DNA from: Gemmatimonadales bacterium
GTDB taxonomy: Bacteria; Gemmatimonadota; Gemmatimonadetes; Gemmatimonadales; GWC2-71-9
Assembly: GCA_036265815.1 (NCBI GenBank)
Contig: DATAOI010000090.1
Location: 1 to 64,000 of the forward strand
Direction of reading: 5' to 3'
DNA length: 64,000 nt
Shown: positions 9,426 to 26,037 of the stretch, piece by piece
Layout of the letters: each line of letters starts with the position of its first letter
How positions within the stretch are numbered: position 1 is the first letter of the stretch
Notes under the pieces: model-generated
Told to the model about the DNA's origin: nothing
The model's input: the letters and a program-made list of their open reading frames with translations, nothing else
Databases searched by the model: none
Translations under genes and position numbers: made by a program

Positions 9426-10409
9426 GTGGCCGTCCCGGCCACCGAGCGGTTGGACCGATTCCTGGCCGACCAGCTGGGACTCTCTCGAACCCAGGCGGCG
9501 CGCCTGGTTGCCGACCGCGCCGTCGAGGTCGACGGCAAGCCGGCCCGCGCCTCCCGGGTGCTGGTCCGGGGCGAGCGAGTCACCATCCACTTTCCCGAGC
9601 ACGAGCCCCCCCGTACTCTCCAACCTGCGTCGATCCCCCTCACCGTCGTGTTCGAGGACGAGCATCTGGCGGTGATCGACAAGCCTGCCGGCCTGGTGGT
9701 ACATCCGGCGCCGGGCCACTGGGACGACACCCTGGTGAACGCGCTGGTGGCCCGGGGCACTACGCTGTCCGGGGGCGCCGAAGGACGTCCCGGCATCGTG
9801 CACCGACTGGATCGCGACACCTCCGGCCTCATGGTGGTGGCCAAGACCGACCTGGCGCATCGCCGGCTGGGCGCCGCGATCGCGGCTCGGCGGGTCCGCC
9901 GGACCTACGCGGCCCTCGCGTGGGGGCATCTCGATGCCAGCCCCACGGTGATCGAGGCCCCGCTCGCCCGGCACCCGCAGGACCGGAAGCGAATGGCGGT
10001 TCTTCCGACGGGTCGGCTGGCGCGCACCGATGCGTCGGTCGTGGCCCGCTTCGGGGTGGCGGATCTCCTCCGCCTGGAGCTGCATTCCGGCCGGACCCAT
10101 CAGATCCGGGTGCACCTGGCGCATCTGGGTCACCCCGTGGTCGGGGATCCGGTGTACGGCGGCGGTGGCAGCCGGCGGATCTCCGGTCCTCCGCGCCGGA
10201 CTGCCGAGGCGCTCGAGCGGGCCACTCCCCGCCAGGCGCTACACGCGGCCGCTCTGGCATTCCGCCACCCCGCTACCTCCGAACCACTCGAATTCCGCTC
10301 GGAGTGGCCCTCGGATCTGCGGCCCGCCCTGGTTGCAGTGGGTGGCGAAGATCTGGTTGCCCGACCGGACCCCCTTGGCTATCTTGTTTTCTTCAATAGA
10401 GATGGCTGA
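9426..10409 (+). CDS. rluD: RluA/RluD family pseudouridine synthase
   Basis: 327 residues: an S4 RNA-binding domain at residues 1-65, then the RluA-type catalytic domain with active-site aspartate D129 in HRLDRDTSG. The family modifies uridines in 23S rRNA. I name rluD from the S4-plus-RluA layout and the lspA neighbourhood; the exact target is not provable here. The first standard start is GTG 9426. The last 8 bases overlap the following cheW, physically joining the housekeeping run to the chemosensory run. Confidence 0.92.
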   Translation: MAVPATERLDRFLADQLGLSRTQAARLVADRAVEVDGKPARASRVLVRGERVTIHFPEHEPPRTLQPASIPLTVVFEDEHLAVIDKPAGLVVHPAPGHWDDTLVNALVARGTTLSGGAEGRPGIVHRLDRDTSGLMVVAKTDLAHRRLGAAIAARRVRRTYAALAWGHLDASPTVIEAPLARHPQDRKRMAVLPTGRLARTDASVVARFGVADLLRLELHSGRTHQIRVHLAHLGHPVVGDPVYGGGGSRRISGPPRRTAEALERATPRQALHAAALAFRHPATSEPLEFRSEWPSDLRPALVAVGGEDLVARPDPLGYLVFFNRDG

Positions 10410-10839
10410 CTCCACTACGCTGCACGCCGTCGTTTTTCGGATCGGTGCGCTAATTTGCGCGGCTCCGGCAGGGATCGTGCGGGAGATCCTGCCGCGCCTC
10501 CCGGCCACCCGGATCCCGGGCGTCGCACAAGCGATCGAAGGACTGGTCAACGTCCGGGGCACCCTCCTCACCGTTCTCGACGGCCACGTCCTCCTCCAGC
10601 AGGCTCGGCGGGAGGAGGACGAAGGCGCGATTGTGGTCCTGGAGGTCGCGGGCAAGCGCTACGGACTCGGGGTGGGGCAGGTGCTCGACTTCCTCGAGGT
10701 GCCGGAGCGCTCGGTGTCCCCGCGCGCCGACCTCCCGGGAGTCGATCCCCGGCTGGTGCGCGCGGTCGGCCTGCAGGACGGCCGGCATTTCATTTTGCTC
10801 GACGTGGATGCGCTGTTCGCGCCGATCATCGGCAGCTAA
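10402..10839 (+). CDS. cheW: CheW-like coupling protein 1
   Basis: 145 residues forming a single CheW (SH3-like double barrel) domain. It has the typical GLVNVRG..LTVLD and LGVGQVLDFLEVP patterns. CheW scaffolds receptors to CheA. The ATG at 10402 lies inside the end of rluD; the in-frame sequence upstream is rluD shadow. It is followed by a 33-nt gap and cheY. This is one of three separate CheW genes in the locus. Confidence 0.88.
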   Translation: MADSTTLHAVVFRIGALICAAPAGIVREILPRLPATRIPGVAQAIEGLVNVRGTLLTVLDGHVLLQQARREEDEGAIVVLEVAGKRYGLGVGQVLDFLEVPERSVSPRADLPGVDPRLVRAVGLQDGRHFILLDVDALFAPIIGS

Positions 10840-10872
10840 GCACGACGACCCTGGAGTTGCACGGAGGAATCT

Positions 10873-11235
10873 GTGAGCCATACGGTGCTCGTCTGCGATG
10901 ACGCCATCTTCATGCGCACGATGATCAGCGACATTCTGAGCCAGGCCGGGTTTGAGGTCGTCGGGGAGGCGGAGTCGGGCAGTCAGGCCGTCGCCAAGTA
11001 CCGGCAGCTCAAGCCCGACCTGGTCACCATGGACATCGTGATGCCGGACATGGGCGGGATCGAGGCCGTGCGGGAGATCTGCAAGACGGACCCCGAGGCC
11101 AAGATCCTCATGTGCAGCGCTATGGGACAACAGGCGCTGGTGGTCGAGGCCATCCAGGCGGGCGCCAAGGATTTCGTGGTCAAGCCATTCCAACCTTCCC
11201 GCGTTCTCGAGGCGGTGCAGCGCGTCCTGGGCTGA
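10873..11235 (+). CDS. cheY: CheY-type single-domain response regulator
   Basis: 120 residues, receiver domain only. Acidic pocket D9/D10, phosphoacceptor D54 in VTMDIVMPD, the switch Ser in MCSAMG, and the conserved lysine in VVKPF. It resembles the Bacillus/Thermotoga CheY type, in keeping with the cheC and cheD genes nearby. GTG start preceded by a clear GGAGG at about 10861-10865. It is the likely phosphorylated output of CheA and substrate of CheC. Confidence 0.95.
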   Translation: MSHTVLVCDDAIFMRTMISDILSQAGFEVVGEAESGSQAVAKYRQLKPDLVTMDIVMPDMGGIEAVREICKTDPEAKILMCSAMGQQALVVEAIQAGAKDFVVKPFQPSRVLEAVQRVLG

Positions 11236-11238
11236 TCC

Positions 11239-13077
11239 GTGGACGTCTCGAAGTATGCCGCCCTGTTTCTGGACGAGAGCCGCGAGCATCTGAGCGGCTG
11301 CAACCAGCTGCTGCTCGAGTGGGAGCGGGAGCCGGCCGCGAGCGAGCCCGTCGGCGGGTTGTTCCGCTCGATCCACACGATCAAGGGAATGGCGGCGACG
11401 ATGGGCTACGCCGGTGTGGCCCAGCTGGCCCACCGGATGGAGAATCTGCTCGACCTGCTCCGCCAGGCGAAGCTGCCCGCCGGACCCGGAATATTTCAGC
11501 TCCTGTTCCGCGCGGTGGATGCGCTCGGGCGGGCGGTGGAGGATGCGGCCGCGGGGAAGGACAGCTCGGCCGAGGAGCTCGAGGCCGAGCTTGACGCCGC
11601 GGCTGGAGGCGAGCCCTCGGCCGCGGTGTCGCTGGCCGCGCCGGCGCCGGCCGCCCGTCCGGTCCGGGTCGCGCTCCGGGCCGACGCCCTGATGCGGGGC
11701 GCCCGCGCCACCCTGGTGGTGCGGCGGGCCGAGGCGCTGGGCCGGGTCACCGCGGTTCGTCCTCCGCTGGCCCACTTCGACCGGGATGACTTCGACGGGC
11801 GGTTCTCCTTCCGTCTCCTGACGAGCGCCACCGAAACCGAGATCGCTGCGGCCCTGCGCACCGCCGGTGATGTCGATCAGGTGCGGTTCGACGAAGGACC
11901 GGCCGAAGCCGCGATGGTCACTCGGGCCCGCCAGATCCGAGTCGACCTGCGCCGGCTGGACGCGCTGATGAAGCAGGTCGGAGAGCTGGTGGTGGCGAAG
12001 AACCGGCTCGCCGTCTTCGCCAGCGCCAGCGGGGACGAGAGCCTGGTCGTTCTGGGTGACCGGATCTCCAAGCTGGTGTCCGGCATGCAGGCCGAGGTGA
12101 TCGCCGCGCGGATGACTCCGGTGGGCGACGTGTTCGAACGCTTCCCCCGGCTGGTCCGCGATCTGGCCCGCGACCTGGGCAAGCGCATCCGGTTCGAGAT
12201 GGAGGGCGAGGAGATCGAGCTCGACCGCTCCATCCTGGACGAGGTCGGTGATCCGCTGCTTCACCTGATCCGCAACGCTGCCGATCATGGAATCGAGCCG
12301 CCCGCCGAACGGGTCGCGGCCGGGAAGCCGCCCGAGGGCCGGATCCTGCTCTCGGCCAGCCGCGAGCGAAACAGCGTGGCGCTCAGGATCACCGACGACG
12401 GGCGGGGTGTCGATCGCGCTGCGATCGCCGCCAAGGCGCGAGACGAGGGCGTGGCCGGTGTCGTCTCGGCGGCCGATGGAGAGGGGCTCACCGACGACCT
12501 GCTGCTTCGGCTCCTCGCCCGGCCCGGCTTCAGCACCGCGCAGACCGTGAGCGGCGTGTCCGGCCGGGGCGTCGGCGTCGATGTCGCCATGACCCGGGTG
12601 CGCGCGCTGGGCGGGACCCTCGAGGTGAAGACCGAGGTCGGGCGCGGGACCACCTTCGTCATCCGGGTGCCGCTCACGCTGGCCATCGTCCGCGCGCTCC
12701 TGGCCGACGCCGCGGGCGAGCGGTACGCCGTTCCGCTCGCCTATGTAGCCGAGACGGTGGAGTTCGATCCGCGATCGGTCACCGCGGTGCGGAATCGCGA
12801 GGCGCTGGTGGTGCGGGAGCAGGTGATCCCGACGGTCCATCTCAGCCAGCTGGTGCGGCCCGGCGCCGATCGCGCCTCGTCCCCCCGGCGACCGACCCTG
12901 ATCCTCGAGGTGGGCGAGCGCCGCACCGCGCTGGTGGTGGACCGGCTGCTGGGACAGCAGGACATCGTGGTCGAGCCGTTCGACGCCCCCCGTGGGATGC
13001 CGCCGTTCGTCGGTGGCGCGACCATCCTGGCCGACGGCGCCCCGGCGCTGATCCTCGACGCCGCAGCGCTGCTGTAG
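11239..13077 (+). CDS. cheA: chemotaxis histidine kinase CheA
   Basis: 612 residues. P1/Hpt domain with phospho-acceptor H46 in SIHTIKG; an Ala/Pro-rich linker near 115-135; a short P2-like region to about 220; P3 dimerization helices (MKQVGELVVAKNRL); P4 ATPase with the N box LIRNAADHGIE; and a C-terminal P5 CheW-like domain. All elements expected for autophosphorylation are present. GTG start three bases after the cheY stop. It should phosphorylate CheY (10873) and the receiver of CheB (24533). Confidence 0.96.
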   Translation: MDVSKYAALFLDESREHLSGCNQLLLEWEREPAASEPVGGLFRSIHTIKGMAATMGYAGVAQLAHRMENLLDLLRQAKLPAGPGIFQLLFRAVDALGRAVEDAAAGKDSSAEELEAELDAAAGGEPSAAVSLAAPAPAARPVRVALRADALMRGARATLVVRRAEALGRVTAVRPPLAHFDRDDFDGRFSFRLLTSATETEIAAALRTAGDVDQVRFDEGPAEAAMVTRARQIRVDLRRLDALMKQVGELVVAKNRLAVFASASGDESLVVLGDRISKLVSGMQAEVIAARMTPVGDVFERFPRLVRDLARDLGKRIRFEMEGEEIELDRSILDEVGDPLLHLIRNAADHGIEPPAERVAAGKPPEGRILLSASRERNSVALRITDDGRGVDRAAIAAKARDEGVAGVVSAADGEGLTDDLLLRLLARPGFSTAQTVSGVSGRGVGVDVAMTRVRALGGTLEVKTEVGRGTTFVIRVPLTLAIVRALLADAAGERYAVPLAYVAETVEFDPRSVTAVRNREALVVREQVIPTVHLSQLVRPGADRASSPRRPTLILEVGERRTALVVDRLLGQQDIVVEPFDAPRGMPPFVGGATILADGAPALILDAAALL

Positions 13078-13089
13078 GAAGGGGAGAGC

Positions 13090-13710
13090 ATGGAAGACGT
13101 GCGGGACCTCAAAGCACTGCAGCTCGACGCCCTCCGCGAGGTGGCCAACATCGGCGGTGGGCATGCTGCCACCGCGCTATCCCAGATGACCAACCGCACG
13201 ATCATGATCGCCGTGCCGGAGGTCAATGTGCGGGCGCTGGAGGAGGTGGCCGATCTGGTCGGGCGACCCGACGAGGTCATCGCGGCCGTGCTGATGCACA
13301 TGATGGGCGACCTCACCGGCCGGACCCTGGTGCTTTTCCCCGAAGGATCGGCCCGAACTCTCTGTGATATACTGATGCGGAGACCGCCCGGGACCACCCG
13401 GGAGTTCGGCGCGATGGAACAGTCGGGGCTCAAGGAGGCGGGCAACATCCTCGCCAGCGCCTACCTCAACGCGCTGAGCGATTTTATGGGCATGATGCTG
13501 GTGCCCTCGGTGCCCAGCCTGGTGGTCGACCTGAGCGCGGCGGTGCTCACCACCACCTACCTCAACTTCGGCCACGACCGGGATTTCGTCTTCTGCGTGG
13601 AGACCTCCTTCCAGGTCGCCGGGGCGATCGAGCCCCTGCGCGGTCATTTCCTGCTCCTGCCCGACATGCCGTCCCTCCGGGCGATCTTCGACGCCATCCG
13701 ACTGCCCTGA
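13090..13710 (+). CDS. cheC: CheC-type CheY-P phosphatase
   Basis: 206 residues with the two pseudo-symmetric CheC phosphatase motifs (E-x2-N): EVANIGGGHAATAL near residues 18-31 and EAGNILASAYLNAL near 115-128. Length and duplication fit CheC rather than CheX or FliY. A strong purine-rich site (AGGAAGGGGAGAG) precedes the ATG. CheC usually pairs with CheD, encoded at 24064 in the same run, so a CheC-CheD feedback loop is expected. Confidence 0.93.
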   Translation: MEDVRDLKALQLDALREVANIGGGHAATALSQMTNRTIMIAVPEVNVRALEEVADLVGRPDEVIAAVLMHMMGDLTGRTLVLFPEGSARTLCDILMRRPPGTTREFGAMEQSGLKEAGNILASAYLNALSDFMGMMLVPSVPSLVVDLSAAVLTTTYLNFGHDRDFVFCVETSFQVAGAIEPLRGHFLLLPDMPSLRAIFDAIRLP

Positions 13711-13714
13711 TCCG

Positions 13715-16384
13715 ATGCCCGGCCCCGTGCTGTCGGAGCGCGATCTCGCCGTTCTGCGCTCCTTTGCCCGCCGGATCGATCCCTCCGATGCCGGGGCCCA
13801 CAATAACCTGGGCGTCCTGTACTACCAGAAGGGATTGATCGAGGAGGCGATCGCCGAATTTGTCAGGGCGCTGGAGCTGGACTCCCGGATGCAGGTGGCC
13901 CAGGCGAACCTCGACATCGCCTACCGGGACAGCGGTCACTACGATCGCCGGATCACCGCCCTGCTGGAGCGGGTTGGCCAGCAGCCCGAAGACCGGGACG
14001 CGCGATGGGAGTTGGGCCGCGCCTTTGCCGCGCTGGGCCGCCACCCGGAAGCCATCGCCCAGTTCGAGGCGCTCCTCACCTGGCACCGGCACGACGTCCC
14101 CGCCATGCTCCAGCTCGGTCTGGCCGAGAAGGCTCGCGGCAACCTCGACGCGGCGAGCGAATGGCTGAGCCGCGCGTGCCGGGAAGACCCCGGCAGCGCG
14201 GTCGCTCACTTCTACGCCGGCGAGGTGTTCTACAATCGCGGGCTCAACGAGCCGGCGCTCGCCGCCTTGCGCGAGGCCATCGAGCGGAGCCCCGAATACG
14301 CCGAAGCGCATTATCTGCTCGCCTTCGTCTACGGTGATATGGGCCAGCACGAGGCGGCCCGCGAAGCCACCCGGCAGGCCATCAAACTCAACCCGACACT
14401 GGCGCGGGCTCAGGCCAACCTCGCCCTCGAGCGATACGGCGGGGAGCGCGAGAAGACCCACGCGCGACCGCAGATCGTCGAGGGCCGCGCGCTGGCCCAC
14501 TGCAACCTCGGGCTTGCCCTCCGACAGAAGGGGTATCACGAGGAGGCGATGCGCGAGTACCACCTCGCGCTGGAGGCCGGCGAGGACCCGCGGCTCTGCC
14601 GCCAGGCGCTGGCCGAGCTCCACATCCTGCGCCGGGACCTGGTCGCGGCCCTGGCCCTCTACGAGGAGCTGGTCCGCGACTACCCCGATTCTCCCAAAGT
14701 GTGGAACGAGCGCGGGGTCTGCCTCCATCAGTCGGGCCGCCGGGAAGAGGCCGTCGCTTCGTACGAGCAGGCGGTCGCGATCGATGGCAGCTATCAGCTG
14801 GCCTGGAACAATCTCGGCGTGGTGCGCGCCCACGAGTCGGGCAGCGACGGGGCCATCATTGCCTTCGGGCGGGCGCTCGCGGGCGAGCGCCCGTTGCTGG
14901 CGGCCCGGCTCAATCTCGGGCTCCTGCTGTTCCAGCGGCGCCAGCTCAAGTCGGCGCTGGAGGAGTACCAGCGGGCGCTGGCCGAGCAGAGTGGCAGCGC
15001 CGTGGCGTGGAACGGCGTCGGCCTGGTGCTGATGGAGCTTCGCCGGTTCGAGGATGCCCGGAATGCCTTTGGCCGCGCGGTCGACGCCGACCCGGCGTTT
15101 GCCGGCGCGCACTATAACCTGAGCTTCGTGCTGAGCCAGCTGGGCGACTTCGATGGCGCGCTGCGGGAGACCCGGCGCGCGCTCGAGCTGGAGCCGCTCT
15201 ACGTCCCCCAGAAATTTTCCCTCACCATCGATCTGCAGTACGAGGACCCGACCATCGCCATCGCGCCCGAGCTCGCGGCGGACGTGGGAGGGGAGGAGCT
15301 GGCGGGAGAGTTCGCCTTCGAGCCGCCGGCGCTCGACCAGCTCTTCGCCGAGCTCGCGCCGGCCACGTCCGCCGTGGGCAACGGGCACGCCGGCGACGCT
15401 CTGGCGCTGGCGCGCGACTACATCGGCAAAGGGCTGCTCGATCTCGCCTCGGCCGAGCTGAGCCGGGCCTCCGCACGGGGGGCGCCGATCGGTCCCACGG
15501 CGGTGCTTCTGGGTGACATCTTCGCCAAGCGGGGACTCTACGGCGAGGCGCTCGAGCGCTACCGCGCCGCCCGAGCCGCGAACCCCGACGACCCCGACGC
15601 CACCCTGGGTGAGATCAGGGCGCTGCTCGCCCTCGGCTGGCCGGGAGACGCGGTGGAGCTGGCCGATGCCCTGGCGACGCGCGTGCGGGGCGACGTCGAG
15701 GTGCTGGTGGCCCGGGCCCGCGTGCGCCTCGCGGTGGGCGACGCGCTCGGCGCCCTCGACTGCATCCGCGAGGCCCAGACCACGGCGCCGGGGCGGTCCG
15801 ATCTCTTCCACCTGCAGGCGCAAGTGTCCGCCCTCCTGGGCGACCGGCCGGCCGCGCTCGCGGCATTCAACGCGGCGCTGCAGCTCGATCCCACGCTGGT
15901 GGGCGTCTGGTACGAGCTCGGTGGACTGGAGGAGGAGCGGGGCAACGTCGCCTCGGCTCGCGCCGCCTACGAGCGCGCGCTGGACCTGCTGCCGACCTAC
16001 GGGGCCGCGGCCCGCGCGCTGGCGGATCTCCTCCGTCGGACCGAGTCCGCCCGCGCCGCCGTGGCCGTGCTGGTCGGTCTGCTCGAGGCGGATCCGTACG
16101 AGCTGGAGGCGCTGACGGCGTTGGGACGCGCCCTCCTGGAGGACGGCCGGACCACGCAGGCGCTGGAGGCGTTCGAGCGGGTGCTGCGGTTCGATCCGGA
16201 GCACGCCGCCGCGCTCTACAACCAGGGAGCCGCGCTCGCCCGGCAACGACAGTTCGAGCTGGCCGTGCAGGCCTGGGAGCGGGTAGTCCAGATCGATCCG
16301 GCCGGCCCCTATGCGTCACAGGCCCGGAGCCGGGCGCGTTCGGCCCGCGATCTCCAGCACATCTTCGCTGCCTCGGCGGGGTGA
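13715..16384 (+). CDS. large TPR scaffold-like protein
   Basis: 889 residues made almost entirely of tetratricopeptide repeats, in two blocks: about residues 25-495 and 555-885, split by a non-repeat acidic linker of about 60 residues (IAPELAADVGGEELAGEF). No signal peptide or membrane helix, so cytosolic. It starts 4 nt after cheC and is followed within 3 nt by a DUF4388 gene. The repeats resemble generic TPRs and give no family name. From position it is probably a protein-protein scaffold for the chemosensory/GTPase machinery; that role is inference. Confidence 0.8.
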   Translation: MPGPVLSERDLAVLRSFARRIDPSDAGAHNNLGVLYYQKGLIEEAIAEFVRALELDSRMQVAQANLDIAYRDSGHYDRRITALLERVGQQPEDRDARWELGRAFAALGRHPEAIAQFEALLTWHRHDVPAMLQLGLAEKARGNLDAASEWLSRACREDPGSAVAHFYAGEVFYNRGLNEPALAALREAIERSPEYAEAHYLLAFVYGDMGQHEAAREATRQAIKLNPTLARAQANLALERYGGEREKTHARPQIVEGRALAHCNLGLALRQKGYHEEAMREYHLALEAGEDPRLCRQALAELHILRRDLVAALALYEELVRDYPDSPKVWNERGVCLHQSGRREEAVASYEQAVAIDGSYQLAWNNLGVVRAHESGSDGAIIAFGRALAGERPLLAARLNLGLLLFQRRQLKSALEEYQRALAEQSGSAVAWNGVGLVLMELRRFEDARNAFGRAVDADPAFAGAHYNLSFVLSQLGDFDGALRETRRALELEPLYVPQKFSLTIDLQYEDPTIAIAPELAADVGGEELAGEFAFEPPALDQLFAELAPATSAVGNGHAGDALALARDYIGKGLLDLASAELSRASARGAPIGPTAVLLGDIFAKRGLYGEALERYRAARAANPDDPDATLGEIRALLALGWPGDAVELADALATRVRGDVEVLVARARVRLAVGDALGALDCIREAQTTAPGRSDLFHLQAQVSALLGDRPAALAAFNAALQLDPTLVGVWYELGGLEEERGNVASARAAYERALDLLPTYGAAARALADLLRRTESARAAVAVLVGLLEADPYELEALTALGRALLEDGRTTQALEAFERVLRFDPEHAAALYNQGAALARQRQFELAVQAWERVVQIDPAGPYASQARSRARSARDLQHIFAASAG

Positions 16385-16387
16385 CCG

Positions 16388-17437
16388 GTGGCGCTCGAGG
16401 GTCCACTCAAAGAGCTGCACATCCAGGACGTCTTCCAGCTGCTCGACCTGGGTCGGAAGAGCGGCGTGCTGCGGGTCACCTCCGACCTGCGCCAGACGGC
16501 GGGTACCGTCTGCTTCGACCGGGGCGGGGTGGTGGCGGCGGCCGTGGGCAGCGATGCGCAGCCGATCGGCGCCCGGCTGGTGCGCTCGGGCAAGATCACC
16601 GCCGCCGATCTGGACCGCGCGCGCGCCGCGCAGAACGCGGGCGACGGCCGACGTCTGGGGGACATCCTGGTCCAGCTGGCCGTCATCTCCCGGCGGGAGC
16701 TCGACCGCCAGCTGAAGGCGCAGATCGAGGAGGCCGTTTTCGACCTCCTGCGCTGGTCGGAGGGCTACTTCGTCTTCGAGGAGGGGAGCCCTTGCCACGC
16801 CGCGGTCGAAGCCCCGGTACGGTTTCCCACCGAGGCGCTGCTGATGGAAGCCGCGCGGCGGATCGACGAGTGGTCGCGGATCGGGTCCAAGGTGTCGCAC
16901 CTGCGATTGGTCCCCCGGCTGCCGCCGCCGGAGCAGCAGGGGAGCGAGCTGCTCGATCTGGTCCCCTTCGAGTGGGAGGTGCTCGCCGCCGTCGATGGCC
17001 AGCGGGACCTGCACTCGCTGGCCGAGGTCCTGGGGCGCTCGGAGTTCGAGATCGCTCGCACCGTGTACGGACTCACCAACGCCGGCGTAGTGGTGCTGGA
17101 CGATCCCGCGCGCCCCGGCGAGGAGCCGGAGCCCGGCCGCGATCTCGCCGCCCTGCTGGTGCCTGCGCGCGAGGCGCTGGGACAGGGGGAGTACGACCTG
17201 GCGGCAGGGGCACTGGAAGAATTGCTGGAGCACGATCCCGAAATGCCGGAGGCCCGTCGGCTGCTCGGTCTCTGCTATGCCGCCAAAGGTCACTTCCCCG
17301 AGGCGCTGACCTGCTGGGCCCAGTGGACTCACCTCGCCAGCCGCACGCCGGGCGAGGAGTCGGAGGCGTCCGCGGTGGAGCGTCTGCGTCAAGGCGTGGA
17401 CCATCTCATGAAGGAGCTGGCGCGCTACCGTGAGTGA
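16388..17437 (+). CDS. DUF4388 (PATAN) protein with MshEN-like motifs
   Basis: 349 residues. Residues 4-57 and the surrounding strand pattern match DUF4388/PATAN (LKELHIQDVFQLLDLGRKSGVL, FDRGGVVAAAV). Two 24-residue repeats follow at 59-82 and 89-112 that look like the MshEN c-di-GMP motif pair. The first has PIG instead of RLG and the second has Ala for the central Gly, so binding may be lost. Residues 215-255 look like a winged helix, and the end is TPR-like. It is a clear paralog of the protein at 21633. GTG start. Confidence 0.75.
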   Translation: MALEGPLKELHIQDVFQLLDLGRKSGVLRVTSDLRQTAGTVCFDRGGVVAAAVGSDAQPIGARLVRSGKITAADLDRARAAQNAGDGRRLGDILVQLAVISRRELDRQLKAQIEEAVFDLLRWSEGYFVFEEGSPCHAAVEAPVRFPTEALLMEAARRIDEWSRIGSKVSHLRLVPRLPPPEQQGSELLDLVPFEWEVLAAVDGQRDLHSLAEVLGRSEFEIARTVYGLTNAGVVVLDDPARPGEEPEPGRDLAALLVPAREALGQGEYDLAAGALEELLEHDPEMPEARRLLGLCYAAKGHFPEALTCWAQWTHLASRTPGEESEASAVERLRQGVDHLMKELARYRE

Positions 17438-18248
17438 CGACATCAGGAGTCTGACCGATCGCCTGGCCGCCGAGCCGTCCAGCCTCGCCTTCCTCGAGCT
17501 GGGCGAAGCCTTGCGGCGTCGGGGACAGCTGGAGGCCGCGTACAAGGTGGCGCGCGGTGGAGCGAGCCGGTATCCGGGTCTGGCGGATGCGCACGACCTG
17601 ATGGCGCGGATCCTGAGCGATCAGGCGGACCTGGCCGGCGCGTTCGACGCCTGGTCCTCCGCGCTGCAGCTCGATCCGATGCGGGTCTCGGCGCTCAAGG
17701 GGATCGCGTTTCTCTATTTTCGCGCGGGGGACACGGTGGCCGCGGTGGATCACCTGCAGCGCGCCGCCGAGGTCGATCCGGACGATCCGTCGATCATCCA
17801 GGCCCTCGATCGGGTGCGCCGGGACGTGACCAGCGCCGGTCCACCCGCCCCGGTCGACACTCCGTCGCCGACCCCGCCTGCGCCGCCGACAGCGATGGCG
17901 TTCGAGGGCGTCGACGGCGGGGAGCAGGGCCAGCTGCTGGTGGACGGGAACGGACTCCGCCTCGCCGGCAAGCTCGCGCTGTCGGATGGGAGCGATGCCA
18001 GCGACCAGGTCGCGGCTCGGCTCGCCGGAGCCTCCCGGGAAGCGGCGCGGGCGACTCGCTTGCTCGGGCTCGGCGGATGGCACTCGATCGCGCTGGAATG
18101 TCCCGATGGCCACATCGTGCTCTCCTCGCCCACGGTGGACACGGTGCTGCTCACCGTACGCGATCGATCGCTGCCGATGGCGCGGGTCGGACTGCTCGCC
18201 GAACGGGCGGCCCGGAGCGCGCGAACCTGGCTGGAGCGCCTGGGATGA
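17430..18248 (+). CDS. TPR protein with C-terminal roadblock/LC7-like domain
   Basis: 272 residues: TPR-like helices at about 5-130 (LELGEALRRRGQLEAAYKVA, with two to three more repeats), a Pro/Thr-rich linker at 135-155, then a C-terminal domain of about 110 residues with the alternating pattern of roadblock/LC7 proteins (LLVDGNGLRLAG ... LECPDGHIVLSSP ... MARVGLLAERAARS). The domain call is my reading, not a search result. The ATG lies inside the end of the preceding gene, and the stop overlaps the next ATG. It probably tethers a regulator of the MglA-like GTPase through TPR contacts. Confidence 0.65.
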   Translation: MSDDIRSLTDRLAAEPSSLAFLELGEALRRRGQLEAAYKVARGGASRYPGLADAHDLMARILSDQADLAGAFDAWSSALQLDPMRVSALKGIAFLYFRAGDTVAAVDHLQRAAEVDPDDPSIIQALDRVRRDVTSAGPPAPVDTPSPTPPAPPTAMAFEGVDGGEQGQLLVDGNGLRLAGKLALSDGSDASDQVAARLAGASREAARATRLLGLGGWHSIALECPDGHIVLSSPTVDTVLLTVRDRSLPMARVGLLAERAARSARTWLERLG

Positions 18249-18592
18249 GCCCGACCGACGCGGCACTCGATCGTGTGACCCGGGTCCCGGGTGTCCGGGG
18301 GGCGCTGCTCGTGGCCGGCAGCGATGGCCTGGTCGTGGCCGAGCAGCTCATGGATGGAGTGGACGGCCGGGCGGCCGCGGCGCTCACGGCCAGCCTGGTC
18401 GGCCGCCTGTCGCGCGCGGCGGAGTGCGCCGGCATGCAGCCGCCCGCGTTCGTGCACCTCAAGGGCGAGGCGGGCTCGGTGCTCGCGGCGCCGGCCGCCG
18501 CGGACCTGGTGCTGGTAGCGGTGGTGGGCCCCGACGCCAACGTCGGACTGGCGCGGCTGGAGATGCTCGACGCGGTGGGCCGGCTGGACTGA
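18245..18592 (+). CDS. roadblock/LC7 domain protein 1
   Basis: 115 residues, a single roadblock/LC7 domain: VPGVRGALLVAGSDGLVVAEQL at the start, FVHLKGEAGSVLAAPA in the middle and NVGLARLEML at the end. Such proteins (MglB class) dimerize and act as GTPase activators for MglA; an MglA gene follows at 19058. ATGA overlap with the preceding gene and TGATG with the next support co-translation. Confidence 0.82.
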   Translation: MSPTDAALDRVTRVPGVRGALLVAGSDGLVVAEQLMDGVDGRAAAALTASLVGRLSRAAECAGMQPPAFVHLKGEAGSVLAAPAAADLVLVAVVGPDANVGLARLEMLDAVGRLD

Positions 18593-19053
18593 TGCGCGCC
18601 CTCGAGCCCTGGGTAGTGGATCCGCTGCAGAGCTTCCTGACGGAATCGTCGGCCCGGCTCACCCTGCTGATGACCACCTCTGGACAGGTGGTGGCACAGC
18701 ATGGCTTCAGCCGCTCGCTCGACGTGATGACGGCCGCCGCGCTGGGCGCCGGCATCGTGGCCTCGACCGAGGAGCTCGCCCGGCTGATGGGGGCGTCGCG
18801 GTTCGGTGCCCTGGTGCATCACGGGGTGCGGCAGAGCTGTCTGCTCTCCGCCTTCGCGACGCCGCGGGGGCGCTGGATCGGACTGGTAGTGTTCGGGCCG
18901 GAGACCTCGGTCGGTATCGTGCAGCTCTTCTTCGATCAGATGGTGCAGCAGCTGATGACCGCGGCACCCCGCGAGCAGGCCCACGCGGCGACGCTGGCGG
19001 AGAATTTCGAATCCGAGCTCAACGCGAGCCTCAAAGCGCTCTTCGGACGGTAA
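18592..19053 (+). CDS. roadblock/LC7 domain protein 2
   Basis: 153 residues. Residues 20-120 follow the roadblock pattern (LTLLMTTSGQVVAQHGF, an alanine-rich helix, LVHHGVRQSCLLSAF, GLVVFGPETSVGIVQLFF), with a C-terminal helical extension of about 30 residues. It is diverged from the roadblock protein just upstream, so the two could form a heterodimer. It sits 4 nt before the GTPase gene. The start at 18592 overlaps the previous stop by one base. Confidence 0.8.
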   Translation: MRALEPWVVDPLQSFLTESSARLTLLMTTSGQVVAQHGFSRSLDVMTAAALGAGIVASTEELARLMGASRFGALVHHGVRQSCLLSAFATPRGRWIGLVVFGPETSVGIVQLFFDQMVQQLMTAAPREQAHAATLAENFESELNASLKALFGR

Positions 19054-19057
19054 CGAA

Positions 19058-19660
19058 ATGTCTCTGGTCAACTTCACGGCGCGCGAGATCACCTGCAAGA
19101 TCGTGTATTACGGACCGGGCCGGTCCGGCAAGACCACGAACTTGCAGTACGTCTATGGCCGGGTGCCGGAGAGCCGGCGCGGCCGGATGGTCTCGCTCGC
19201 CACGCAGACCGACCGGACCCTGTTCTTCGATTTCCTGCCCCTGGAGCTCGGCACCATCTCCGGGTTCACCACCAAGTTCCAGCTCTACACCGTTCCGGGG
19301 CAGAGCTACTACAACGCCACCCGGAAGCTGGTGCTGCAGGGCGCCGACGGCGTGGTATTCGTGGCCGACAGCCAGGCCCGCCGCTTCGACGACAACCTGG
19401 AGAGCCTGCAGAACCTGCAGGACAATCTGCTGGGCCAGGGCGTCGATGTCCGCCACCTGCCGGTCGTCTTCCAGTACAACAAGCAGGACCTCCCCACCGA
19501 TCTCATCCTTTCCCACGAGGAGATGGACGATGCGCTGAACTTCCGGGCGGTGCTGAGCTTCGGGGCCGACGCGCTGCACGGAAGCGGCGTGTTCGAGACC
19601 CTGCGCGGTATCTCCGAGATCGTCCTCAAGCGGCTGGCCGCCGGGAGCCCGGTCGCGTGA
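19058..19660 (+). CDS. mglA: MglA-type Ras-like small GTPase
   Basis: 200 residues. P-loop GPGRSGKT at 19-26, PGQ switch motif at 80-82, NKQD base motif at 141-144. The arginine R53 and glutamine Q82 sit at exactly the numbers described as the intrinsic arginine finger and catalytic Gln in characterized MglA proteins. MglA sets cell polarity and drives type IV pilus or gliding motility in Myxococcus. Two to three roadblock genes precede it, matching the MglB-MglA logic. The last 4 bases overlap the tandem ATPase gene. Confidence 0.93.
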   Translation: MSLVNFTAREITCKIVYYGPGRSGKTTNLQYVYGRVPESRRGRMVSLATQTDRTLFFDFLPLELGTISGFTTKFQLYTVPGQSYYNATRKLVLQGADGVVFVADSQARRFDDNLESLQNLQDNLLGQGVDVRHLPVVFQYNKQDLPTDLILSHEEMDDALNFRAVLSFGADALHGSGVFETLRGISEIVLKRLAAGSPVA

Positions 19661-21633
19661 CCGTCACCCTCAATCCCCTCTACCGCTTCGACACCATGGT
19701 GGTCGGCGCGGCCAACCGCCTGGCGGTTACCGCGTCGAAGGCGGTGGCCGAGTCGCCGGGGACGGTGTATAACCCGCTCTTCATCTATGCCCGCCCGGGC
19801 CTGGGGAAGACCCACCTGCTGATGGGCATCGGCCACGCGGCCCGGGCGATCAACCCGCGGCTTTCCGTCGAGTATCTCACCCTGGACGAGTTCGTGGAGG
19901 CGTTCCATGCCGCCATCGCCGCCGGCCACGGCGAGGCGTACCGCAAGCGTTTCCTCGACGTCGATCTGCTCCTGGTGGACGACGTGCAGTTCCTCACCCA
20001 CCGGCGGGAGATGCAGGCTGAGCTGCTGCGGCTCACCGACGCGCTGCAGCAGGCCAACCGTCAGATCGTGCTCACCAGTGATCGGCCGCCTGCGGAAATC
20101 GAAGCGCTCGACGAGCGCCTGATCCGTCGTTTCGCCGGGGGTCTGGTGATCGATATCTCCGCCCCGGACTACGAAACTCGGGTCGCGATTCTCCGGCGCA
20201 AGGCGGAGGAGCGGCGCGCCGGGTTCGCCGATGGAGTGCTCGAGGCGGTAGCGTCGCTGGGAATCGACAACGTGCGTGAGTTGCTGGGCGCGCTCAACCG
20301 TTTGATTGCCTTCCAGGCGGTGAGCGACACGCCGCTCGGCCCGGCGGAGGCGCGCTCGCTGATCGGGGGCCCTGGGGCGCCCGATGCGGATGACGCGCCG
20401 GGCGCGTCGGTGCCGGCGGACGCGGCGGCCGAGTCGCGCGACGAGTTCGGCGAATTCCTGAGCGAGATCTCCGCCACCGTGGCCCAGCAGGTCGACGCGT
20501 GGCGGACCAAGGTCAGCGCGGCCCTCCTCCGTTGGCAGGGCGAGGGGTTCGTCATCACCCGGCTCCAGGCGCTGCTGGATCAGGAGATGGTGAGCGATCC
20601 CGCGCGGGCCATCGGCGAGTTCGAGGCGGACGTCGAGCGGCTCCAGGCCATGCGGAGGGAGGCCGCGGAGCTCGCTCCCGAGCTGGCCGGCTCGCCGGCG
20701 TTCCACGATCCGGCGGATCTCGCTGCCGCCGAGGCCGCGCTCGCCCGCGCGCGGGCGGGCGCGGTGCCTCCGCCCGCGCCGTCGCCACTCTGGCGCCTTG
20801 GGGAGCTGGCCGAGTCCACCGGCAACCGCCTCGCGCTCGAGTCGGCCCGTCTGGTGGCCGCCGAGCCCGGCACCGGGTACAACCCGCTGGTCATCGTGGG
20901 TGCCGGCGGGACCGGGAAGACCCACCTCCTCCACGCCATCGGCAACGAGCTCGCGGGACGGGGTGGACCGGTCGCCTGCCTCAGTGCTCCGGAGCTGACC
21001 GGCGAGCTGATCGAAGCGATCGACCGAGACGCCGTGGCCGGCTGGCGCGCGCGCTACCGCCGGATATCGGCGTTCCTGCTGGACGACGTGCACCTGATCG
21101 CCGACAAGGACCGCAGCCAGGATGAGCTGTTCGTGCTCTTCAACCTGCTGCTGGAGTCGGGACGGCAGATGGTGTTCACCTCGGCGGTGCCGCTGGCGGG
21201 ACTGCCTGGGGTGGAGGCCCGACTCCGAACCCGGCTGGAAGGCGGTCTGGTGGTCGAGCTGCCTCCGCCGGACGAGGACATCCGCGGGCGGGTGATCGCC
21301 CGCGCGCTGGGCGAGAAGCTGGGCCGGGCGGACGCCGCACTGGTGTCGTACCTGGCCGCCCGCCCGGTGGAATCGGTGCGTGCGGTGCAGGGGCTGGTTC
21401 AGCGGGTGATCGAGGCCGCGGAGGCTCGCGGGATGGCGCCGACGGCCGGGCTCGCCCGCGAAGTGCTCGAGGGACCCGTCGCTCCAGTGCCGTCGCGGAG
21501 CGAGGCCGAGCGGCCCCGGCCGCCCCGCTCGAGCGGCATCGTCGCGCCCACGGCCGGAGGCGCGCGCAGCCGGGAGAAGATGGTCTGGGAGTGGCCCGAC
21601 GTCAGCGAGCGCGTGCTGGAGGAGTGGCGCTGA
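19657..21633 (+). CDS. tandem DnaA-type AAA+ ATPase without DNA-binding domain
   Basis: 658 residues. Module 1 (about 5-230) is very close to DnaA domain III: LNPLYRFDTMVVGAANRLA, Walker A at 48-53 with K51, Walker B D108/D109, LTSDRPPAEIEALDERL, RLIRRF box VII with candidate arginine finger, and NVRELLGALNRL. A helical charged linker spans about 260-380. Module 2 (about 385-600) repeats the entry sequence, with Walker A K421 and Walker B D476/D477 but RLRTRLEGG instead of the RRF box. The DnaA domain IV helix-turn-helix is absent. It is therefore not a replication initiator but probably an oligomerizing switch ATPase, encoded between MglA and a DUF4388 protein. Confidence 0.85.
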   Translation: MTVTLNPLYRFDTMVVGAANRLAVTASKAVAESPGTVYNPLFIYARPGLGKTHLLMGIGHAARAINPRLSVEYLTLDEFVEAFHAAIAAGHGEAYRKRFLDVDLLLVDDVQFLTHRREMQAELLRLTDALQQANRQIVLTSDRPPAEIEALDERLIRRFAGGLVIDISAPDYETRVAILRRKAEERRAGFADGVLEAVASLGIDNVRELLGALNRLIAFQAVSDTPLGPAEARSLIGGPGAPDADDAPGASVPADAAAESRDEFGEFLSEISATVAQQVDAWRTKVSAALLRWQGEGFVITRLQALLDQEMVSDPARAIGEFEADVERLQAMRREAAELAPELAGSPAFHDPADLAAAEAALARARAGAVPPPAPSPLWRLGELAESTGNRLALESARLVAAEPGTGYNPLVIVGAGGTGKTHLLHAIGNELAGRGGPVACLSAPELTGELIEAIDRDAVAGWRARYRRISAFLLDDVHLIADKDRSQDELFVLFNLLLESGRQMVFTSAVPLAGLPGVEARLRTRLEGGLVVELPPPDEDIRGRVIARALGEKLGRADAALVSYLAARPVESVRAVQGLVQRVIEAAEARGMAPTAGLAREVLEGPVAPVPSRSEAERPRPPRSSGIVAPTAGGARSREKMVWEWPDVSERVLEEWR

Positions 21634-23249
21634 TGGCGATCAAAGGCAGTCTCAAGGAGGCCAGTCTCCCCGATGTGATCCAGCTGCTGTTCCTGGGACG
21701 CCGCACCGGCTGCCTGGCGCTGGCCGACCGCCACAACTTCGGCACCATCTACTTCGAGGAAGGCCACATTGTCTACGCGGCGATCGTGAACCGCCGCGAT
21801 CGTCTGGGAGACATCCTGCTCCGCAGCGGGCGGATCACCGCGGAGCAGCTGCAGAGCGCCGTCGATCAGCAGGTGGGAGACCGGGAGCACAAGCTGGGCG
21901 AGATCATCGTCCAGCTCGGCGCGCTCACCCGGGAGGAGCTGGAGAGCTACATGCGGCTTCAGATCGAGGAGGCGGTCTACTACCTGTTCACCTGGGTCTC
22001 CGGCACCTTCAACTTCGAGGCGGGCGTGCGCCCGGAGCGGGAGGACTTCCTGGTCCGGATCAACCCCGAGTTCCTCCTGCTGGAGGGTGCCCGCCGAGTG
22101 GACGAGTGGAGCCTGATCGAGAAGAAGATCCCCTCGTTCGACCTCATCTTCGCGGTGGACCGGAGCCACATCGGCGAGTCGGCGCCGGACCTGTCGCGCG
22201 AGCAACAGCAGCTGCTTCCGCTGCTCGACGGGACCCGGGACGTCCAGCACCTCATCGACCAGTCCGGGATGGTCGAATTCGAGGTGGGGAAGGCGCTCTT
22301 CGGCTTGATCACGGCGGGGTTCGCCCGCCGGGTCGGCACCTCCACGGCGGCGGCCCCCAAGGTGAACGACGGACGGGTGGACGAGCACCGGAACCTGGGG
22401 GTGGCCTTCTACAAGGCTGCCATGCTCGACGAGGCGCTGCGGGAGTTCCGCCGGGTGGCCGAGCTCCGGCCGGAGGATGCGAGCGCGCCGTTCTATCTCG
22501 GGCTCATCGCGCTGAGGCAGGCGCGCTGGGAGGAGGGAGCCGACGCGTTCCGCCAGGCCGCATCGGGGCCGGCCGCGCGGCCGGCGGCGCTCCACAACCT
22601 GGGGTTCGCCCTGGAGCGGCTGGGGCGTCTGGACGAGGCGGAGGCCGCGTACGGCGATGCGGCCGGGCGGTCGCGCGAGGATCCCCGCATCATGCTGGCC
22701 TGGGGGGTGGTGGCCCTCAAGCGCGGGGAGCATCAGGTGGCGCAGGGCCGGCTGGCCCGCACCATCGAGCTGCTGGGTCCCAAGCCCGCGCCCGCGCTCT
22801 GGTACTGGGCGGCGACGCTGGCCAGCGCCGGGCTCAACGATCAGGCCGGCGCGCTCAGCGCCGCCAAGGCCGGAGCCGCGGCCTATCCCGCCAGCGCGGT
22901 GCTGCAGAACAATCTCGCGGTGCTTCTGGAGTTGGCGGGAGATCTGCCGGGCGCCGAAGCGCTGCTCCGGACGGCGCTGGCGGAGGAGCCCTCGCTGCCC
23001 CAGATCTCCAAGAACCTGGCCGACATTCTGTACCGCAACGGCCGCTACGACGAGGCGCGCGAGGCCTACGAGCGGGCGGCCAAGCTCGCGCCCGATCTGG
23101 GAGACGACCTCTACTTCAAGCTGGGGAACATCGCCTACAAGCGGCGGGACACCACCCGCGCGCGGGAGAGCTGGAGCCAGGCCACCAGCCTGAATCCGGG
23201 GCATGAGCTCGCTCGCGCCAACCTCGAGATGCTGGACCTGGCCAAGTGA
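21633..23249 (+). CDS. DUF4388 (PATAN) protein with MshEN-like motifs and TPRs
   Basis: 538 residues. N-terminal DUF4388 (IKGSLKEASLPDVIQLLFLG), then two intact-looking 24-residue MshEN-like repeats at 57-80 and 87-110 (RLGDILLRSGRIT... and KLGEIIVQLGALT...), a winged-helix-like region to about 235, and a TPR array at about 250-535. It is paralogous over its first 230 residues to the protein at 16388 but keeps the key Leu-Gly and Gly positions. The start ATG 21633 overlaps the previous stop; an in-frame ATG at 21591 would lie inside the ATPase gene. Overlaps cheR by 4 nt. Confidence 0.8.
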   Translation: MAIKGSLKEASLPDVIQLLFLGRRTGCLALADRHNFGTIYFEEGHIVYAAIVNRRDRLGDILLRSGRITAEQLQSAVDQQVGDREHKLGEIIVQLGALTREELESYMRLQIEEAVYYLFTWVSGTFNFEAGVRPEREDFLVRINPEFLLLEGARRVDEWSLIEKKIPSFDLIFAVDRSHIGESAPDLSREQQQLLPLLDGTRDVQHLIDQSGMVEFEVGKALFGLITAGFARRVGTSTAAAPKVNDGRVDEHRNLGVAFYKAAMLDEALREFRRVAELRPEDASAPFYLGLIALRQARWEEGADAFRQAASGPAARPAALHNLGFALERLGRLDEAEAAYGDAAGRSREDPRIMLAWGVVALKRGEHQVAQGRLARTIELLGPKPAPALWYWAATLASAGLNDQAGALSAAKAGAAAYPASAVLQNNLAVLLELAGDLPGAEALLRTALAEEPSLPQISKNLADILYRNGRYDEAREAYERAAKLAPDLGDDLYFKLGNIAYKRRDTTRARESWSQATSLNPGHELARANLEMLDLAK

Positions 23250-24067
23250 CCCCCCCCGACGACCTCGCGTTCGCCAGGCTCGCGCAGGTGATCGCGCAGG
23301 GCTCCGGCTTCACGGTGGAGGCCTACAAGGAGAAGTGCGTCCGCCGCCGGATCGCCGTGCGGATGCGGGCCTGCGGGGTCCACACCTACCAGGACTATCA
23401 GACGCTGCTGGAGCGGACGCCCGCGGAATACGAGCTGCTGCGCGACGCGCTGACGATCAACGTCACCCGTTTCTACCGGAACGCCGAGACCTGGAACCGG
23501 CTCCGTCGGGACCTGGTGCCGCAACTCTGTGCCGAGCCGATGACTCGGCTGACGGCCTGGAGCGCAGGCTGCTCCTCGGGAGAGGAGCCCTATACTCTCG
23601 CCGCCCTCATTGCCGACGCGCTGGACCGGAGCGGCCGGGCCGACCAGCTCGACCGGGTGACCATCGACGCGACCGACGTCGATCGGGGCAGCCTGGAGCG
23701 TGCGGCGGGCGGCCGCTACAGCACCGAGGCGCTGAGTGAGATGCCGCCGGAGCTGGTGCGCGCCTACTTCGAGGCCGACGGGGCGGAGCACCGGGTGATC
23801 GAGCGGCTGCGCCGCCGGGTCCACGTCCGGCGGCTGGATCTGAACCAGGAGCCGCCGGTCCGGCGAGCCTATCATCTCATCCTCTGTCGCAATGTGGTCA
23901 TCTACTTCGACCGGCTGATGCAGGAGCAGCTGTTTCAGACCTTCGCCACCGCGCTTGCCCCCGGCGGCTACCTGGTGCTGGGCAAGGTCGAGACCCTGTT
24001 CGGCCCCGCGCGCGACCTGCTGCAGCTCATCGATCCGCGGGAACGGATCTACCGGCGACCTGGATGA
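23246..24067 (+). CDS. cheR: chemoreceptor methyltransferase CheR
   Basis: 273 residues. N-terminal helical domain (EKCVRRRIAVRMRACG), then the SAM-binding Rossmann fold with AWSAGCSSGEEPYTLA, TDVDRGSLERA and CRNVVIYFD. It methylates glutamates of chemoreceptors for adaptation. GTGA start overlap with the DUF4388 gene and ATGA-type overlap with cheD. Its presence implies that methyl-accepting receptors exist elsewhere in the genome, since none is encoded here. Confidence 0.95.
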   Translation: MTPPDDLAFARLAQVIAQGSGFTVEAYKEKCVRRRIAVRMRACGVHTYQDYQTLLERTPAEYELLRDALTINVTRFYRNAETWNRLRRDLVPQLCAEPMTRLTAWSAGCSSGEEPYTLAALIADALDRSGRADQLDRVTIDATDVDRGSLERAAGGRYSTEALSEMPPELVRAYFEADGAEHRVIERLRRRVHVRRLDLNQEPPVRRAYHLILCRNVVIYFDRLMQEQLFQTFATALAPGGYLVLGKVETLFGPARDLLQLIDPRERIYRRPG

Positions 24068-24552
24068 CCGGCCGAGAGATTCTGGTGCGCGTGGCCGACC
24101 TCCGGGTCGGCTGCCGGGAGGACGTGCTGATCACCATCGGCTTGGGGAGCTGCGTGGCGATCATGCTACACGATCCGATGGCCCAGGTGGGTGGGCTGGC
24201 CCATGTGCTCCTGCCCTCGCCCGGGCTGGGAAGAAAGGACGCGAACGCGGCCAAGTTCCCCCAGACGGCGGTGCCGATGCTGATCGAGCTGATGGCCGCC
24301 CAGGGCGCCAGCGTCCGCCGGATGGTGGCGCGGCTGGCGGGCGGGGCCAGCATGTTCGCCTCGCTGGCCCCGAGCGGCACCATTCAGATGGGCGAGCGCA
24401 ACGTGGTGGCCTCCCGTCAGGTGCTCAACCAGATCGGCATCGCCCTGGTGGGCGAAGCGGTGGGCGGGGACTACGGCCGGACTGTCCGGCTCCGGGTGGC
24501 CGATGGGCAGGTCGAGGTCTCCTCCGTGGCGCATGGTATCCACACGCTCTGA
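24064..24552 (+). CDS. cheD: chemoreceptor glutamine deamidase CheD
   Basis: 162 residues. The catalytic triad matches the Thermotoga enzyme: T24, C30 in GLGSCVA and H47 in [15 protein letters not shown] is also conserved. CheD deamidates receptor glutamines and stimulates CheC, encoded upstream at 13090. It overlaps cheB by 20 nt. Confidence 0.95.
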
Positions 24553-25609
24553 CCAGCCCACGGTCCTCGTGGTCGACGACAGCCCCTTCTTCCGCCGGCT
24601 CCTGACCGAGGTGGTGGACGGGACCGGTGAGTTCCGCGTCGTCGCGACCGCGAGAAACGGACTGGACGCGCTGCGGAAAGTGCACGACCACGTGCCCGAC
24701 ATGGTCCTGATGGACCTGGAGATGCCGGAGCTCGACGGGCTGGGCGCGATCGGCTACATCATGTCCGAATCGCCCCGGCCGATCGTGGTAGTGAGCTCCT
24801 ATGCCGGGCCCGGCACGGCGGCCGCCATCCGCGCGCTCGAGCTCGGCGCGGTCGACCTGGTAGCCAAGGAAGACGAGCGCTCGGAGCGCTCGACGGCGCG
24901 CTTCGCCGAGCGGCTGATCGGAGTGCTGCGGGCGGCGCGGAGTGCCGACATCGGCCGGCTCCCGGTCCTCGCCCGGCCCGCGCGCGGTGTACCGGATCAG
25001 GCGCTCTTCGCGCTCCCCGGCCGCGCGCGCTACTGCGTCGCCGTGGCCGCCTCGACCGGTGGACCGCGCGCGCTGGCGGAGCTGGTGCCTCGCCTGGTCA
25101 CCGGCCAGGGGGCCGCGGTGCTCATCGTGCAGCACATGCCGCCCCGCTTCACCCAGAGCCTCGCCGAGCGGCTCGCGTCCCAGAGTCGGTTCAACGTGGT
25201 CGAGGCGCGGCACCAGACGCCGATGCTCGCCGAGACCGCGTACATCGCGCCGGGAGACTACCACATGCGGGTCGAGGCGGCCCCGGATGGTCCCCGTCTG
25301 ACGCTGGACCAGGAGCCGTCGGTCTGGGGCGTCCGCCCGGCCGCCGACCCGCTCTTCCGGAGTGTGGCCCAGCGATTCGGCGAGCGCGCCATCGGCGTGG
25401 TGCTCACCGGGCTGGGCCGCGATGGCGCGGAGGGGCTCCGGCTGATCCACGACGCCGGCGGGATCGGGATCGCCCAGGACCGCGAAAGCGCCACCATCTA
25501 TGGCATGCCCAACGCCGCGCTGCAGGCGGGCGGGGCCGATCATGTCCTTCCGGTCGGCGCCATGGCCGACCGGATTCGCCTCGAGCTGTCCCGCATGGAG
25601 CGACGATGA
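24533..25609 (+). CDS. cheB: protein-glutamate methylesterase CheB
   Basis: 358 residues. Receiver domain at about 8-125 with D15/D16 and phosphoacceptor D61 in VLMDLEMPE, a linker, then the methylesterase domain with catalytic Ser in ASTGG, His in IVQHMP and Asp in GLGRDGAEG. Demethylates receptors when activated by CheA. I chose ATG 24533 because residues upstream of it are shadow of cheD and the receiver begins soon after. Confidence 0.95.
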
Positions 25610-26037
25610 TCCCGAAAGGCGAGGGATATCTGCTGGTGCGCGCCGCGGGCCGGCGAGTGGGGCTCGCCTTGGCGCAGGTGGTCGAAGTGCTCGACCCCGG
25701 CCCAACGTATCCGGTCCCGGCGGTCGAGCCCGCGGTGCGGGGCGTGACCACCGTTCGCGGCCGCATCGTCCCGGTCATTCACCTGGGTGCGCTGCTCGAG
25801 GGAACCGCCTGTCCCGACGCCCGCGGCGATGTGGCTATCGTGGTGGAGCTCGCCGGCCGCACGCTCTGCCTCGAGGTGGAGGAGGCGGAGACAGTGCTCC
25901 GGGAGCCCGGGTTCGCGGTACCGCCGGGCGCGGCGCTGGCATGGGCCGTCGCCGTGGCCCGGACCGACGAGGGGCTCGTCCCGCTGCTCGATCTGACCGC
26001 GCTCGGCGCGCGCATCAAGGAGGACCCAGCCGCATGA
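25606..26037 (+). CDS. cheW: CheW-like coupling protein 2 (divergent)
   Basis: 143 residues of CheW fold ([19 protein letters not shown] is diagnostic). It diverges from the other two in this locus, with a short last region. Overlaps cheB and the next cheW by 4 nt each. It may couple a different receptor class or cap the array; no direct evidence. Confidence 0.85.

Follow-up and report, generated by a model that had tools for sequence, protein, structure and literature searches.

In a Gemmatimonadota contig (DATAOI010000090.1), the gene for the Ras-like GTPase MglA lies at the centre of a chemosensory operon and is preceded by three different roadblock genes. The window, by which we mean the whole 64,000-nt stretch of DNA analysed, carries these genes head to tail at positions 17430–19053, directly 5′ of mglA and on the same (+) strand. 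RBt, a TPR–roadblock fusion (17430–18248; 272 aa, GTG start), overlaps the preceding PATAN gene by 8 bases and the stand-alone roadblock RB1 (18245–18592; 115 aa) through an ATGA; RB1 in turn shares a TGATG with RB2, an MglB-type roadblock with a C-terminal (Ct-) helix (18592–19053; 153 aa). The mglA gene itself (19058–19660, +) encodes a Group 1 enzyme of 200 aa. An earlier note, made from the letters of the sequence, had described three consecutive, mutually diverged roadblock-type genes ahead of MglA, joined by translational overlaps. The coordinates and the overlaps are as described, profile searches on all three proteins together with predicted folds for RBt and RB2 bore out the roadblock assignment, and the divergence was confirmed by HHalign and by the finding that the three proteins form distinct families across the class.

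The mgl module is the centre of a chemosensory cluster that spans positions 10030–26037 on a single strand (+), in the order cheW-Y-A-C … R-D-B-W. The upstream part comprises a CheW-like gene (10030–10839), a CheY-like receiver (10873–11235), cheA (11239–13077) and cheC (13090–13710), the last two identified with Pfam. These are followed by an open reading frame for a large TPR protein of 889 aa (13715–16384), a candidate effector or adaptor whose repeats were read off the sequence, and by a PATAN/DUF4388–TPR protein (16388–17437; Pfam 7.5e-31). Downstream of mglA lie a protein with two tandem DnaA-type AAA+ domains (19657–21633; Pfam Bac_DnaA matched twice), in which the Pfam scan found no DnaA C-terminal DNA-binding domain, a second PATAN/DUF4388–TPR protein (21591–23249; Pfam, NCBIfam), cheR (23246–24067), cheD (24064–24552), cheB with a receiver domain (24503–25609) and cheW (25606–26037). 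Both PATAN proteins matched the MshE-related c-di-GMP-binding motif NF053729 of NCBIfam, at 42.1 and 41.3 bits, respectively (cut-off 38).

All three proteins belong to the Roadblock/LC7 superfamily, with differing strength. Against the Pfam Robl_LC7 cut-off of 23 bits, RB1 scored 45.9 bits (4.6e-12) and RBt 29.2 bits, with an additional Pfam TPR match, and RB2 fell under the cut-off at 16.9 bits. RB2 was, in turn, matched by the NCBIfam MglB model (8.3e-9), and its family profile retrieved only MglB structures from the PDB (best 2.4e-16). The RB1 family profile retrieved archaeal roadblocks (2.2e-14), MglB more weakly and LAMTOR2 only weakly (E about 0.005), and the RBt family profile matched roadblocks and MglB at about 1e-5 to 1e-4 (2.5e-5 to 6e-5). 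RB1 is assigned by sequence; the predicted roadblock fold, one of the points on which the earlier note wanted its idea judged, is present in both chains that were folded. The AlphaFold2 model of RBt (pLDDT 92) has TPR helices at residues 2–135, a linker and a roadblock domain at about 155–272, in which the roadblock strands and helices occupy 168–271 and the first helix is missing. A fold search with this model was uninformative on the roadblock half, since the matches listed were of TPR type only. The RB2 model (pLDDT 89) shows a full roadblock and a separate helix at 139–151, and its best Foldseek match in the PDB is Myxococcus MglB (6hjm).

By profile, fold and Ct-helix, RB2 is the MglB of the module, and it is the only one of the three that looks like this known regulator. 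The predicted helix at 139–151, which follows a linker of low confidence, corresponds to the element through which MglB touches MglA allosterically (PMC6785124). Within the RB2 family, F139, E140, L143 and L147 are invariant, and the C-terminal pattern FE..L...L...F is conserved. In a joint alignment, the position of Myxococcus MglB Ala64 is Ala in 64/71 RB2 sequences, and the position of Gly68 is Glu in 63/71. With Ala at position 64 and a Ct-helix, RB2 is likely a GAP; given the conserved Glu at the Gly68 position, its MglA-facing surface nevertheless differs from that of known MglB. The module MglA matched Myxococcus MglA at 7e-71 (phmmer), and the motif DRTLFFDF with the intrinsic Arg, as well as TVPGQ, could be read in its sequence. 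Group 1 MglA is defined by TVPGQ in G3 and an intrinsic Arg in the switch 1 region (PMC4316618), and the module MglA is therefore a Group 1 protein. Compared with Thermus thermophilus and Myxococcus xanthus, the RB2 fold, the Ct-helix, the position of mglB directly 5′ of mglA, and the intrinsic Arg and TVPGQ of MglA are all alike, whereas the two extra diverged roadblocks 5′ of mglB and the Glu of RB2 at the Gly68 position are different.

RBt and RB1, on the other hand, do not look like MglB-type GAPs, judged by the small residues at 64/68 and the Ct-helix, which they lack. At the Gly68 position of the joint alignment, Arg is found in 58/58 RBt and 48/79 RB1 sequences, and at the Ala64 position RBt has mostly Arg or Gln and RB1 mixed residues. 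The alpha-2 substitutions A64R G68R of Myxococcus MglB correspond to A68R A72R of T. thermophilus MglB, which lowered GAP activity (PMC7519303). Nothing like a Ct-helix follows the last roadblock helix of RBt, and the RB1 chain stops at that helix. The two proteins resemble each other more than either resembles RB2: HHalign probability was 95 for RBt–RB1, 66 for RB1–RB2 and 12 for RBt–RB2.

The arrangement is conserved across Gemmatimonadota. An RB2-family scan of the genome-contig collection yielded 80 loci, labelled as Gemmatimonadota under various names save for one labelled only Bacterium HR33; the order PATAN-RBt-RB1-RB2-MglA-DnaA-like-PATAN was kept in 80/80 fetched loci, up to where contigs end. 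For 298 genomes from the phylum, orthologs were counted by hand from tables with a cut between two clear score tiers, giving 135 genomes with RB1, 132 with RB2 and 130 with both, and the arrangement thus occurs in about 45% of these genomes; in one of the five RB1-only genomes (G105) the locus runs into a contig end. The stop/start overlap was kept between RBt and RB1 in 136/138 and between RB1 and RB2 in 125/136 loci, but between RB2 and MglA in only 6/138 (138 loci fetched, 111 non-redundant at 97%). Together, the conserved gene order and the kept overlaps indicate that the arrangement is not due to chance. Where enough flanking sequence was available, cheA was found upstream in 43/51 loci, cheC in 46/51 and the large TPR gene of the 889-aa type in 45/51, and cheR, cheD and cheB were found downstream in 45–46 of 58. 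The fixed arrangement is thus common to much of the class and usually lies within a che cluster.

Lineages with a trimmed module show which parts travel together. RB2 has been lost in G039 and G089, which keep RBt, RB1 and MglA. In G134 and G281 (L158, L163), RB2 and the module mglA have both been lost, and PATAN, RBt, RB1 and the DnaA-like gene are still there. Five g31 genomes (G008, G015, G093, G136 and G276) have an RBt without its TPR half, reduced to the roadblock by itself; in two of them, G015 and G276, the three roadblocks are retained and the module MglA is absent. In G051 (L164:3093-4773), a TPR arm is fused directly to an MglB-type RB2 followed by mglA, with neither the RBt roadblock nor RB1, and G246 keeps only part of RB2, RBt and RB1 both being gone. 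The RBt roadblock and RB1 therefore share one fate in every trimmed lineage seen, few as these lineages are, and RB2 and MglA can be lost separately. In a PATAN tree, the G089 row nested among RB2-bearing lineages, with the G134/G281 pair separate. This suggests two independent losses of RB2, a count that is not firm, since the branches of G134/G281 and of G051 are long and the G039 row probably represents the wrong, downstream PATAN.

Three indirect lines of evidence, the joint retention and loss, the frequency of the gene overlaps and the closer match of the two profiles, lead us to prefer a paired RBt–RB1 unit. Of the conceivable heteromers, one of RBt and RB1 is the most probable, and it would act beside an RB2 homodimer. 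The earlier note had proposed heteromeric GAP or GEF complexes instead of a simple homodimer; that there is more than an MglB homodimer appears likely, but three equal GAP/GEF subunits do not fit, as only RB2 is MglB-like. We propose that this is an MglA polarity module which has been expanded and lies within a chemosensory operon. In this model, the alpha-2 face of the RB2 homodimer would set MglA's own catalytic residues and its Ct-helix would contact the far side of MglA, with GAP activity, and possibly exchange activity, as the outcome. Neither RBt nor RB1 would be a GAP; instead, the two would pair with each other, most probably as a heterodimer, and dock on the RB2–MglA complex, and the TPR arm of RBt would tether this complex to the PATAN/TPR and Che proteins. 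The pair may thereby couple chemosensory, perhaps c-di-GMP, input to MglA as an accessory or scaffold like MglC, RomY or Ragulator; its role might be that of a GEF, a GAP co-factor or a scaffold. As a whole, we give this model an even chance of being correct. A stronger form, in which RBt–RB1 is an obligate heterodimer, a bacterial counterpart of Ragulator, and serves as an exchange factor or scaffold that plugs MglA into the CheA array, is more speculative and probably goes too far. Mean-field coupling analysis (DCA) of 111 concatenated RBt-RB1-RB2-MglA sets gave no inter-protein signal above noise; inter-protein scores were the same as intra-protein scores, also for the RB2–MglA control.

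The three proteins might instead form three separate homodimers, with RB2 as the GAP, RB1 as an MglC-like adaptor between MglB dimers and RBt as a self-dimerising TPR scaffold. There is a precedent in Myxococcus, where an MglC homodimer binds two MglB homodimers (2:4; PMC7949163), and the closest solved relatives of RB1 include 9jue, an archaeal roadblock whose solved structure is a homodimer. We regard this organisation as possible, though it would explain neither why the fates of RBt and RB1 coincide in every trimmed lineage seen nor their near-universal overlap, which couples translation. The charges at Myxococcus position 65 in alpha-2 are opposite, with Glu in 52/58 RBt and Arg or Lys in 77/79 RB1 sequences, and would also speak against it if the two residues face each other. 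That all three proteins are redundant MglB copies, each a GAP homodimer, is very improbable: they have the fold in common, but they form distinct families across the class, RBt and most RB1 sequences have Arg at the alpha-2 position critical for GAP activity, and the first helix is missing from RBt and the Ct-helix from RB1.

The trimmed lineages also bear on the target of the RBt–RB1 pair. With G134 and G281 retaining RBt, RB1, the DnaA-like gene and PATAN after loss of RB2 and the module MglA, and G015 and G276 holding three roadblocks without the module MglA, this target need not be the module MglA. G134, G281 and G015 each have one other MglA in the genome, so RBt and RB1 could serve a second MglA, the chemosensory array or the DnaA-like ATPase and merely share the operon. 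We consider this unlikely, because the three roadblock genes and mglA are adjacent in the great majority of genomes. Nor can the DnaA-like protein be the sole partner: its gene adjoins mglA in the other loci read, but the modules of the g31 lineage lack it.

In the preferred model, with RB2 as GAP and RBt–RB1 as its accessory pair, the likely output of the MglA module is type IV pilus polarity. The genome itself encodes four PilT-family ATPases above the cut-off, and FliG was found neither in it nor in the nine same-genus relatives searched, which makes type IV pili a more likely output than flagella. In Myxococcus, MglA-GTP promotes pili via the TPR protein SgmX (PMC7519303), and TPR proteins would accordingly be expected as MglA partners here.

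The earlier note took one MglB per MglA as the rule, which is slightly off: 1:2 MglA:MglB systems with PATAN genes nearby are known (PMC4316618), and Myxococcus has the extra regulators MglC and RomY. The 1:2 systems described by Wuichet and Sogaard-Andersen resemble the present one in having more than one roadblock gene per mglA and PATAN nearby, and, as a further likeness, in that only one of their roadblock copies coevolves with Group 1 MglA (PMC4316618). That survey reports 1:1 and 1:2 systems only, whereas here three roadblocks, one of them TPR-fused, occur in fixed order across the class and within a che cluster. MglC and RomY are likewise extra roadblock or accessory proteins, which bind MglB and regulate the module (PMC7949163, PMC9481161). 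They differ in that MglC is a homodimer and the TPR fusion is absent there. Their genes are not known to lie in one operon with mglA. Ragulator (LAMTOR2/3 and 4/5) likewise uses paired non-identical roadblocks as a GTPase scaffold (PMC5680233), but it is eukaryotic and the likeness is one of resemblance only. Actinobacterial conservons (CvnA-D) also place a roadblock, an MglA-like GTPase and a sensory kinase in one operon; they have a Group 2 GTPase, one roadblock and a single histidine kinase, in contrast to the CheA and adaptation enzymes here. We found no description, among open-licence papers, of three roadblocks with MglA or of linkage to a che cluster. The kinds of component are known; the 1:3 MglA:roadblock composition and the che linkage are new relative to these papers.

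The mglA gene of Myxococcus lies apart from those of its signalling partners (PMC4316618), which is why the connections among Frz, MglA and its accessory regulators were worked out one gene at a time. In the present case, MglB, MglA and the two additional roadblocks share one conserved cluster with CheA, adaptation enzymes and c-di-GMP-type sensors, so that a single operon allows one to test how a chemosensory array drives a Ras-like switch in bacteria. Should RBt and RB1 indeed pair, they would be a bacterial heterodimeric roadblock, with a bearing on the origin of Ragulator-like complexes.

Roadblock genes were also present elsewhere in the same genome. A second, ordinary mglB-mglA pair with one roadblock (L031:5081-6511) adjoins cinA, a CDP-alcohol phosphatidyltransferase gene and dnaX. 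The three-roadblock set is thus an addition to a canonical system and not its replacement. On another contig, where the MglA search of the genome found no mglA, a lone RB1-like roadblock gene (L032:3367-3717) is followed by sugar-nucleotide transferase genes.
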